From Lewinellaceae bacterium (GTDB lineage: Bacteria; Bacteroidota; Bacteroidia; Chitinophagales; Saprospiraceae), in the NCBI GenBank assembly GCA_029976695.1, contig JARQTN010000263.1:1-64000 (forward strand): 64,000 bases of DNA, read 5' to 3'. Both the position numbers and the translations under genes were made by a program. The notes below the pieces were generated by a model. The model made no database searches. It was not told the DNA's origin and saw only the letters and a list, made by a program, of their open reading frames with translations. Below, piece after piece: positions 12,705-18,048 of the stretch; position 1 is the first letter of the stretch, and each line of letters begins with the position of its first letter.

Positions 12705-14654
12705 TCATTCCCTGATGATCTTGGCCTGGATCAGGGTTACTTCCTCGTTCAGCCATGGTTCTTCGAATACTTTTTTCCAGAAGGGATCCTGGAAGGAGAG
12801 GATGAGTCCGCCTTTCGGCCCCTCGGCGGCTGCGCGGAGGCTTTGCTTGATGAAATCATGGTCATTGAGTCCGTAGGCGATGCAGATCTGGAGGAACCTG
12901 ACGTATGCTTCCGGTTTGTGCGCGGCAATTTCGTTCAGCCTGTCCCGGCAGGAATTTGCCTTTTCCAGGTTTCCGATAATGCCCCACAACAAGCCCCGGA
13001 CAGCCACAAATTCCATGAAAGTTGGATCTGTTTGAGGAATATTGGTCCTTGCGACCTCGAGTGCTTTTTCATATTCCCCCTGGTAGATGAAAAACCAGGC
13101 CAGCTGGATGATGAGGTTCCTGGCATCCGGAAATAGGTCCCGGGTGTGCTCCAACTGGGCAAATGCTTCTTTCACCTGCCGGTTTGCCATGTAGGCCTCC
13201 GCAAGGTATGCATTTGGAATGAGCGATACAGGGTCGATCACGACGGCTTCCTCAAGGATCTCGACAGCTTCAATATGCCTGCCGGTCGCACGCAGGAACA
13301 GGCTGTAGGTATAAGTAAATGTCCCGCTTTGCCTGTTGATGGCCTTTGCCCTGTTAAAATATTCCTCTGCCGTGACCAGGTCCCATTCGTAAAAAATGGA
13401 AACCAGTCCCCGGGCGCAGTGGGCTTCAACGAGGTTTGGGTTGATGGAAATCGCCTTTTCCGCATTTTCCCTGGCTGGGGGAAATGCCTTCTCGCCATCC
13501 ATATGTGCAGCCCCCCCAAGGAAGGAATAGCAAAACGACTTGAATGCGTAGGCCTCTGCAAACCCGGGATCTTTCCTGATGGCTGCGTCCAGGTGCTGGA
13601 TGGCTTTTTTTGTGTTTTCAGCATCGTACTTGTTCCAGTGGAAAATACCCTTCAGGTAGTCCTGGTACGCCCGGATGTTTGTTGTCGGATCGTGATGGAC
13701 AATCTGGGTTTCAGATTCCAGCCCGAGTGCCTTCCGAAGCTGATTTTTGATATTATGCGCAATTTCGTCCTGCACCTCGAAAATATTGTCCAGTTTGTGG
13801 TCGTAGGTTTCCGAAAGCAGGTGATACCCTTCACTGGCACGGATCAGCTGGGCAGTAATCCGAACCCTGTTGCCCGCTTTCCGGACACTCCCTTCAAGTA
13901 CGTACTCAACATTGAGTGCTTTCCCGATTTCCCTGATATCTACCGTGGAACCCTTATAGGCAAACGACGATGTACGTGCTGTGACACGCAGGGCGTTTTC
14001 CTTGCTCAGGGTATTCAGGATTTCTTCTGAAATGCCGTCACTGAAATATTCATTCTCGGGCTCTGCACTCATGTTGACAAAAGGAAGTACAGCGATGCTT
14101 TTTTGCGATCTTTCACCTTTGCCATGAAGCTCCTTTGCATCCGGGACGTTGATCGCATCGTCTACAAGCGCATACAGGCGGATCGGCCGGCGGATATTTT
14201 TCAATTTAAATACACCCAGGCTTTTACAATTAAATTCAGGCTGGTTTCGCAGGTCTTCATAGACCCGGTCAGAAAACATGACCGCCCCGGGTATGCAAAA
14301 GGTTTCGATCCTGGAAGCGATATTGACAGTCTCACCGTAGATCTGGTTTCCTTCAAGGGTTACGTCACCGACGTGGATCCCGATCCGGACCTCTATACCT
14401 TCGATCGAATGGATGGTCTTCTGGATCAGGTAGGCACACTGGGTGGCTTCCACATTCGAATCAAACATGACCAGGGCGCCATCACCGTAAAACTGGATCA
14501 CCTCGCCGTCATATTTCGGGGAAAGGTGCGTGATGACACGCTCAACTTCCTTGCGCAGTTTGATCGCCTGCTGCTCATCCCTGTTCATCATCTGGGAATA
14601 TCCCACGATGTCGGTGAACATGATGGTGGCAAGCTGTCGGGAGGTTTTGCTCAT
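12705..14654 (-). CDS. Class III nucleotide cyclase-like protein with TolB-like and TPR domains
   Basis: A 649-residue cytoplasmic protein with three parts. Residues ~5-170 form a class III adenylate/guanylate cyclase homology domain (IMFTDIVGYS with a metal Asp; FYGDGALVMFDS with the second). Residues ~190-320 resemble the TolB/FlgO-like module that often follows such cyclases (SIAVLPFVNMSAEPENEYFSDGISEEI). The remainder, ~330-640, holds TPR repeats. Both metal aspartates are present, so activity is possible, but nucleotide product and trigger are unknown. No cyclic-nucleotide-binding regulator lies nearby. Confidence 0.87.
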   Translation of the reverse strand: MSKTSRQLATIMFTDIVGYSQMMNRDEQQAIKLRKEVERVITHLSPKYDGEVIQFYGDGALVMFDSNVEATQCAYLIQKTIHSIEGIEVRIGIHVGDVTLEGNQIYGETVNIASRIETFCIPGAVMFSDRVYEDLRNQPEFNCKSLGVFKLKNIRRPIRLYALVDDAINVPDAKELHGKGERSQKSIAVLPFVNMSAEPENEYFSDGISEEILNTLSKENALRVTARTSSFAYKGSTVDIREIGKALNVEYVLEGSVRKAGNRVRITAQLIRASEGYHLLSETYDHKLDNIFEVQDEIAHNIKNQLRKALGLESETQIVHHDPTTNIRAYQDYLKGIFHWNKYDAENTKKAIQHLDAAIRKDPGFAEAYAFKSFCYSFLGGAAHMDGEKAFPPARENAEKAISINPNLVEAHCARGLVSIFYEWDLVTAEEYFNRAKAINRQSGTFTYTYSLFLRATGRHIEAVEILEEAVVIDPVSLIPNAYLAEAYMANRQVKEAFAQLEHTRDLFPDARNLIIQLAWFFIYQGEYEKALEVARTNIPQTDPTFMEFVAVRGLLWGIIGNLEKANSCRDRLNEIAAHKPEAYVRFLQICIAYGLNDHDFIKQSLRAAAEGPKGGLILSFQDPFWKKVFEEPWLNEEVTLIQAKIIRE

Positions 14655-14770: not shown

Positions 14771-17136
<2,366 letters not shown>

Positions 17137-17163
17137 TTAGATAAAAGATTTTGTTCAGTCAAA

Positions 17164-17197
17164 AAAAAAGCTGAAACCAGCAGGCTTCAGCTTTTTT
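17164..17197 (-). terminator. Intrinsic terminator in the metYX leader (attenuator stem 3:4)
   Basis: On the - strand, AAAAAAGCTGAAGCC and GGTTTCAGCTTTTTT form a strong hairpin around a 4-base loop, followed by a T-run. It lies after the stop codon of the leader frame (17220) and 40 bases before the metY ATG, so it can only act as a premature terminator. The G/C core pairs 17170-17175 with 17186-17191. The symmetric A/T flanks also give a usable U-tract on the + strand, but no + strand gene ends here. Confidence 0.85.
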
Positions 17198-17219
17198 GAG
17201 ATCTATTTTATTGAATTCT

Positions 17220-17357
17220 TTATTCCATAAGCTGCAGCCCCATGCTCATTTCCATACAACAACACATACAACAACACGCTATTTGCCCGACTGCAGAGTA
17301 GGCACTGCTGTACACAGGTTCTTGATTGGTCCGGAGATGGAGTTGGATTGATTGCAT
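17220..17357 (-). CDS. Cys/Met-rich leader peptide of metYX (45 aa)
   Basis: An ATG at 17357 opens a 45-codon frame ending TAA at 17220. Its last 18 residues are CCCMCCCMEMSMGLQLME: six Cys (all TGT) and five Met codons. The upstream 27 residues are unremarkable. The frame overlaps RNA segments that can pair alternately with each other and with the downstream terminator, the hallmark of a ribosome-stalling attenuator. A promoter with -33 TTTG and -7 TACTTTTA lies about 18 bases upstream of the ATG. No independent function of the peptide is implied. Confidence 0.78.
   Translation of the reverse strand: MQSIQLHLRTNQEPVYSSAYSAVGQIACCCMCCCMEMSMGLQLME
17229..17296 (-). promoter_or_regulatory. Attenuator pairing segments 1 and 2 of the metYX leader
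   Basis: On the - strand, segment 1 CTGCAGTC (17289-17296) can pair with GGCTGCAG (17232-17239), enclosing the Cys/Met codons. The overlapping segment 2 GGCTGCAGCTT (17229-17239, codons 40-43 of the leader) can instead pair with AAGCTGAAGCC (17183-17193), the 5' arm of the terminator, in 10 of 11 positions. The 1:2, 2:3 and terminator pairings are mutually exclusive. Stalling on the Cys run would free segment 2 and prevent termination. Confidence 0.7.
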
Positions 17358-17374
17358 CGCAAAAGTTTAATGAT

Positions 17375-17407
17375 TAAAAGTATTCATTGAGCGTCCATAA
17401 AGTCAAA
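17375..17407 (-). promoter_or_regulatory. Promoter of the metYX leader transcript
   Basis: On the - strand, TTTG (17404-17407) and TACTTTTA (17375-17382) are separated by 21 bases and match the Bacteroidota -33/-7 consensus in 11 of 12 defined positions or nearly so. Transcription would begin about 10 bases before the leader ATG. Confidence 0.65.
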
Positions 17408-17508: not shown

Positions 17509-18048
17509 ATGCAACAGGTAATCGATACGATAATCAGGCAGTTGAATCCGGTGATGATTCGCGCTGAAAGTGATAAGATCCGTGATATCCAACTTGATGT
17601 GAGGGATATCAAGGGATCTGTCGCTGCATTGAAGGACCAGTTGAATGTCTGGGAAAAGCTCAATCCTTTCTCTCATTCAGAAGAAAAGAAAGAACTGAAG
17701 TACCTCAGGGACGAGTTAAAATTCTATAAGAATGAGCTGAAGATCATCAAGGATGGCTTGCGAGCCGAGATCCGTTCGATCATAGAAGCCTCGCCTCCCT
17801 TGCGCATGAAAGCCACAGTTTCAGAGATGGAAGATGCGATGGATCGATTGCAATCCAGGCTGAAAAGGGGCGGAAACAAGAACGCTTCACATCTGAACAA
17901 ATATGCCGAGATCCGGTCAATGCGTGACAATATCCGGGAACTGGATATTCTGATTCAAAACCAGTTCGGTTTTGAAAAAGGGCTCTTTCGTGAGCATGAA
18001 ATGGTCGAAGCAGTATTGCAGGAAGTACTGAACAGCCGAATGTCCTGA
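17509..18048 (+). CDS. Uncharacterised coiled-coil protein
   Basis: A 179-residue charged protein without signal peptide or membrane segment. Residues ~20-125 are rich in heptad-like Leu/Ile with Lys/Glu/Asp (for example KYLRDELKFYKNELKIIKDGLRAEI in pieces), predicting a long coiled coil. No enzyme motif is visible and I do not recognise the family. It is transcribed away from metYX and converges on the AMP nucleosidase gene, so its neighbours give no functional hint. Codon use looks like that of the surroundings. Confidence 0.75.
   Translation: MQQVIDTIIRQLNPVMIRAESDKIRDIQLDVRDIKGSVAALKDQLNVWEKLNPFSHSEEKKELKYLRDELKFYKNELKIIKDGLRAEIRSIIEASPPLRMKATVSEMEDAMDRLQSRLKRGGNKNASHLNKYAEIRSMRDNIRELDILIQNQFGFEKGLFREHEMVEAVLQEVLNSRMS

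Follow-up and report, generated by a model that had tools for sequence, protein, structure and literature searches.

The trp, his, leu and pheA operons of enterobacteria carry the classical ribosome-mediated transcription attenuators, in which a leader ORF holds codons for the amino acid of the pathway, an antiterminator overlaps the terminator, and the position of the ribosome decides between the two. The trp leader also has a 1:2 protector pairing, a feature that is not considered essential for every attenuator of the class. Leader-peptide attenuation has been little described in Bacteroidota. The leader of metY-metX analyzed here, in a 64,000-nt stretch of DNA from a Lewinellaceae bacterium (the whole stretch is called the window), likewise has a leader ORF with pathway codons and an antiterminator strand overlapping a terminator. 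It differs from trp, his, leu and pheA in that two amino acids, Cys and Met, are represented in one codon run, in that it precedes metYX of Bacteroidota, and in that it has no supported 1:2 stem. What computation establishes is the set of sequence parts and its conservation, the mutual exclusion of the pairings and the fixed place of the pairing strand behind the codon run. On these grounds the leader is very probably a trp/his-type attenuator at which charged tRNA-Cys and tRNA-Met would be sensed together.

Several described leaders approach this arrangement in part. In Rhodobacterales, uORFC-8-2 is a Cys-codon leader before cysS that is followed by an intrinsic terminator (PMC8632094); it differs from the window leader in having only two tandem Cys codons, a tRNA-synthetase gene downstream and an alphaproteobacterial host, and a Met run is not described there. 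In Actinobacteria, runs of Cys codons lie near the stop codon of a short ORF before cys genes, where no terminator was found (PMC1262725), and poly-Cys leader ORFs of mycobacteria and other Actinobacteria are attributed to Canestrari et al. 2020, as cited in PMC13236596. With their Cys runs near the stop and their place before sulfur genes, the mycobacterial and actinobacterial ORFs resemble one of the two leader forms distinguished below (Form A), but the control reported for them is translational, they precede cys operons and no riboswitch is described for them, whereas the window leader has a strong terminator. Precedents for Form A are found in M. tuberculosis, where a B12 riboswitch (metE/ppe2; PMC11260477) and an Mbox riboswitch (pe20; PMC12810186) each lie beside a short translated ORF; ligands and phylum are different, and the abstracts of these papers do not describe amino-acid sensing. 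That one and the same gene can be preceded by different sensors, a T-box or riboswitch in some cases and a leader peptide in others, was documented by Naville and Gautheret (2010, PMC2965389); here the exchange falls within one phylum and sets a SAM riboswitch against Met codons in an already-present Cys leader. Attenuation of amino-acid operons by leader peptides is mentioned for Flavobacterium psychrophilum in PMC9723704, the main text of which does not give these details. The sequence-only reading had known of no equivalent for Bacteroidota metYX, and searches of the main texts of open papers turned up neither a Cys/Met leader of metYX nor a combination of SAM riboswitch and Cys leader, although an absence within that scope is weak evidence.

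On the minus strand of the window, the order is promoter, 45-codon frame, intrinsic terminator and metY-metX, and every element lies where the sequence-only reading had placed it. The promoter is of the Bacteroidota type, with a −33 element TTTG (17404..17407) separated by a 21-nt spacer from a −7 element TACTTTTA (17375..17382; consensus TAnnTTTG) that lies 17 nt before the leader ATG. This spacing is common among leaders that lack a riboswitch: TAnnTTTR occurs no more than 45 nt upstream of an in-frame ATG in 19/26 of them, as compared to 19% of shuffles, and 17 of the 19 with a −7 element have TTG 19-21 nt further up. From the position of the −7 element, transcription is expected to start only a few nucleotides ahead of the leader ORF, giving a short 5' UTR (the mycobacterial type of poly-Cys attenuator is leaderless, its transcript starting with the ATG), and the conservation of a promoter near the leader ATG indicates that the leader ORF is probably the first thing transcribed. 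The leader ORF itself (17220..17357) starts with ATG and encodes MQSIQLHLRTNQEPVYSSAYSAVGQIACCCMCCCMEMSMGLQLME, of which CCCMCCCMEMSMGLQLME is the C-terminal stretch. Codons 28-35 (17253..17276) form the putative regulatory run CCCMCCCM, a Cys/Met-rich run that is kept in the window's clade, and further Met codons follow at positions 37, 39 and 44. metY (15793..17124, ATG at 17124) encodes an O-acetylhomoserine sulfhydrylase (TIGR01326, E 1.6e-206; PF01053), and metX (14771..15796), which starts with GTG and shares 4 nt with the end of metY, encodes an alpha/beta hydrolase of the homoserine O-acetyltransferase family (MetX family, E 4e-96), its match to TIGR01392 being below the curated cut-off of that model. 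Homocysteine, from which methionine is made, is the product of MetX and MetY, and this role in the pathway fits the notion of an attenuator that senses Cys and Met.

The density of Cys and Met codons is far from random. When the 450-nt window leader was shuffled 20,000 times with its dinucleotides preserved, no shuffle reached six Cys in eight codons, and none reached eight Cys plus Met in eight codons. The sequence-only reading had made itself dependent on finding a conserved Cys/Met frame and a terminator in orthologous leaders. Whole genomes at the level of family, order and class, together with named GTDB genomes, supplied the metY orthologues, the closest named relatives being Saprospiraceae MAGs at 81-83% identity. 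The reading withstood both the comparison of 139 loci and that of 37 units of Cys/Met ORF plus hairpin. A short ORF with at least four Cys in eight codons is present in 53% of the 139 leaders, against 0.8% of shuffles and 0.7% of opposite strands, and a Cys-dense short ORF precedes metY at about half to two thirds of the 139 Bacteroidota loci, against 1-10% in shuffles. The peptides are alike in Cys/Met content, length and place and otherwise bear little resemblance to one another; even in the window's own clade of about 20 loci (L001-L003, L005, L039/L040, L159-L174) they have little in common beyond Cys and Met. In the window's own genome, exact CCCMC occurs once, at the window site. Its 31 TGY4 matches and nine CCCMC near-matches, for all of which the frames were read and for some of which the downstream genes were viewed by eye, contain no convincing short leader ORF.

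The sequence-only reading proposed three mutually exclusive pairings, of which two stand. Segment 2, the putative antiterminator strand GGGGCTGCAGCTTA (17228..17241), lies within the last codons of the leader ORF, and segment 3 (AAAAAGCTGAAGCCTG, 17181..17196) is the 5' arm of the terminator, which can pair either with segment 2 or with its own 3' arm. The pairing of segment 2, through 17239-17229, with segment 3 has a dG of −17.0 and a z of −3.9 against shuffles, and the terminator (17161..17196) is a predicted hairpin at 17196-17165 of −19.0 kcal/mol with nine T at 17169-17161. The remaining pairing, between segment 1 (CTGCAGTC, 17289..17296) and segment 2 (17296-17289 with 17239-17232), is present as complementarity and finds no functional support, its ensemble probability being 0.00 and its z −0.1; ensemble folding and shuffles thus give no 1:2 protector stem for the untranslated window RNA. 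The fold of the whole window leader is unexceptional, 1.3 SD better than shuffles (z −1.3), the signal residing in the individual pairings. A further candidate, a pairing of the Cys codons with the start region of metY (GTTGTTG with CAACAAC) that was noticed by eye in the window, was rejected, since most relatives looked at do not show CAACAAC downstream.

Pairing of segment 2 with the 5' arm of the terminator recurs in the 37 riboswitch-less units, some of which belong to the window's clade and some to other families (mean z against shuffles −2.1, Fisher 4.5e-18). Hairpins and codon runs were chosen by hand from folds and some units are from close relatives, so that the combined p-value is a guide and inexact. 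L005, L020, L021, L039 and L162, among others, are individually non-significant. Segment 2 begins 1-14 nt past the Cys/Met run and is within the ORF in 33/37 units, the stop codon mostly lying 15-42 nt past the run, and it fits its own terminator arm better than most arms swapped in from other loci (median rank 8%). Several members of the window's clade (L002, L003, L160, L164 and L172-L174) keep the exclusive pairings of segment 2 and the hairpin arm without a clear U tract, suggesting that in these relatives the output step may differ from intrinsic termination.

How the position of a ribosome might set the outcome was modeled by folding the RNA left free downstream of an assumed ribosome footprint, with only the 5' arm of the terminator made. 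With the A site at Cys28 to Met35, the antiterminator has a probability of 0.86, which falls to 0.72 at Met37 and to 0.00 from Met39 onward. The model thereby bears out the earlier proposal that a ribosome held at the Cys run frees segment 2 and one at the last Met or the stop covers it. Met31, Met35 and Met37 are placed where a stalled ribosome would still leave segment 2 free and Met39 masks it, so that sensing through the Cys and early Met codons, as first suggested, is the best reading of the geometry. The antiterminator is thus predicted to form before the hairpin is complete, but once the whole hairpin is transcribed, the terminator is favored at every ribosome position in the full-length fold. 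As the terminator always wins at equilibrium, antitermination must be co-transcriptional, and the model depends on timing. The modeled geometry is that of an attenuator, in which a stall at the regulatory codons frees the antiterminator strand and arrival at the stop codon masks it.

From this model we infer translation of the leader ORF, ribosome stalling, actual termination and a response to Cys and Met. Transcription would begin just upstream of the leader ORF. With Cys-tRNA or Met-tRNA in short supply, the ribosome on the leader ORF would halt in the CCCMCCCM-E-M stretch and leave segment 2, directly behind the run, free to pair with the nascent 5' arm of the terminator, allowing RNA polymerase to continue into metY-metX. 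When both charged tRNAs are plentiful, the ribosome would reach Met39 or the stop codon and cover segment 2, the terminator would form and transcription would end.

More surprising is the wider pattern, in which a SAM riboswitch stands before a Cys leader and leaders lacking the riboswitch show Met codons plus a terminator. The SAM-I riboswitch or S-box (RF00162) lies before metY in most relatives. The Rfam scan of the whole window gave no match, the window leader contains no RF00162 aptamer above the gathering score, and RF00162 was not found anywhere in the window's genome (G000, 97% complete) nor genome-wide in four related genera searched (G005, G007, G032 and G024). Many other genomes with riboswitch-less leaders keep the riboswitch elsewhere and not at metY. 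All loci were scanned with a covariance model derived from 13 SAM-I aptamers that Rfam had confirmed, and 169 Bacteroidota metY leaders were counted, known duplicates and truncated leaders being left out. Form A, a SAM-I riboswitch followed by a poly-Cys leader ORF, accounts for 63/169; Form B, an ORF with mixed Cys/Met codons and usually a terminator but no riboswitch, for 36/169 including the window. The riboswitch occurs alone in 39/169, and 31/169 have neither riboswitch nor Cys/Met ORF. At least two Met are present in the run of 30/36 riboswitch-less as compared to 11/63 riboswitch-bearing leaders (p 1e-10), a terminator follows the ORF in 15/21 as compared to 1/54 (p 3e-10; first 139 loci), and at least five codons follow the Cys run in 31/36 Form B as compared to 2/63 Form A leaders (p 4e-18), the Cys run of Form A abutting the stop codon, or nearly so. 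On the metY tree, presence of the riboswitch changes seven times among the ORF-bearing rows. The independent contrasts between riboswitch and Met codons, four well-supported (seven including unsupported branches), are nearly all in the expected direction and non-significant; related loci are not independent, and four well-supported contrasts are too few for significance. The sequence-only reading could not see that most relatives have a SAM riboswitch ahead of the leader ORF, and the Met codons of the window take on another meaning in that light.

Form A includes L009-L012, L015-L018, L022-L025, L041-L044, L071, L073, L093, L104 and L106, which are mostly without an intrinsic terminator. By contrast, L072, L091, L107 and L116 have a SAM riboswitch and a classical terminator before metY but no Cys ORF. 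In 47/50 Form A loci the first ATG past the aptamer is in the frame of the Cys run, where one third is expected (p 2e-19), and this ATG lies 0-18 nt, most often 7-10 nt, behind the aptamer. With this geometry, translation of the Form A leader ORF would be initiated at the A-rich 3' strand of P1, the closing stem, and we infer that SAM binding restrains translation of the leader, making Form A probably a riboswitch-gated leader peptide. A different elaboration is found in the 450 nt upstream of metY in L125, L138, L139 and L140, and less clearly in L013 and L133, where two successive Cys/Met ORFs each have their own terminator. The pairing is significant in both copies in L125 and L139 and is weak or non-significant in at least one copy in L138 and L140.

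An attenuator of the same design might sense cysteine only, the Met codons being due to other causes, such as start-like codons or drift. Cys runs are indeed the constant part of all leader forms, and L027 and L146 lack a riboswitch yet have few Met. This reading is nevertheless unlikely, given the 30/36 against 11/63 excess of Met-containing runs where the SAM riboswitch is missing and the location of Met31, Met35 and Met37 in the window at positions from which a stall still frees segment 2. Somewhat less probable again is a leader ORF that acts through translation or Rho-dependent termination, as in the mycobacterial poly-Cys ORFs, with the hairpin secondary. The 1/54 Form A leaders with a terminator and the hairpins without a U tract in some close relatives of the window would agree with such a mode of action, but the window hairpin is strong and is followed by nine T, and in 15/21 leaders without a riboswitch the ORF is followed by a terminator.

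Clusters of Cys and Met can bind metals, raising the idea that the product of the frame is a small Cys-rich protein with a function of its own, for example metal-binding, and not a regulatory leader. The variation of the peptides in all but Cys/Met content, length and place, the poly-Cys runs of Form A that abut the stop and the coupling of the codon run to the terminator pairing make this very improbable. That a Cys-rich frame and a terminator came together by chance, with no regulatory link, is more improbable still: terminator-like sites are common at random (10 found, 8.7 expected), but the shuffle, pairing and promoter tests and conservation over many genera oppose it. A ribosome-mediated attenuator responsive to both Cys and Met is therefore retained as the preferred reading of the window leader.

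What would be new is dual Cys/Met sensing of metYX in Bacteroidota, the interchange of such a leader with a SAM riboswitch, the tandem arrangement of attenuators in some relatives and, probably, the riboswitch-gated leader of Form A. A broader proposal, to which we give an even chance, is that bacteroidotal metYX operons share a single control system for sulfur amino acids, whose two forms can replace each other. Form A would nest SAM-gated initiation and Cys-tRNA sensing and have no intrinsic terminator; leaders lacking the riboswitch would sense Met by their codons and use a terminator/antiterminator, and some lineages would stack two attenuators. If true, two unlike sensors, a SAM-binding RNA and ribosome-read tRNA-Met, have been exchanged for one need, Form A would be a natural gate with two inputs, the status of methionine and that of cysteine, and the replacement of one sensor by the other is testable through part swaps between close relatives. 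The leader rules are simple enough for annotation across hundreds of genomes.

Two further ORFs flank the metYX locus in the window. Beside the metY promoter, a divergent 179-aa ORF (17509-18048, plus strand) has only a sub-threshold Pfam match (PF10158). Directly downstream of metX, the protein encoded at 12705-14654 on the minus strand has an N-terminal region that matches a lipase/adenylate cyclase model, followed by TPR-like matches.
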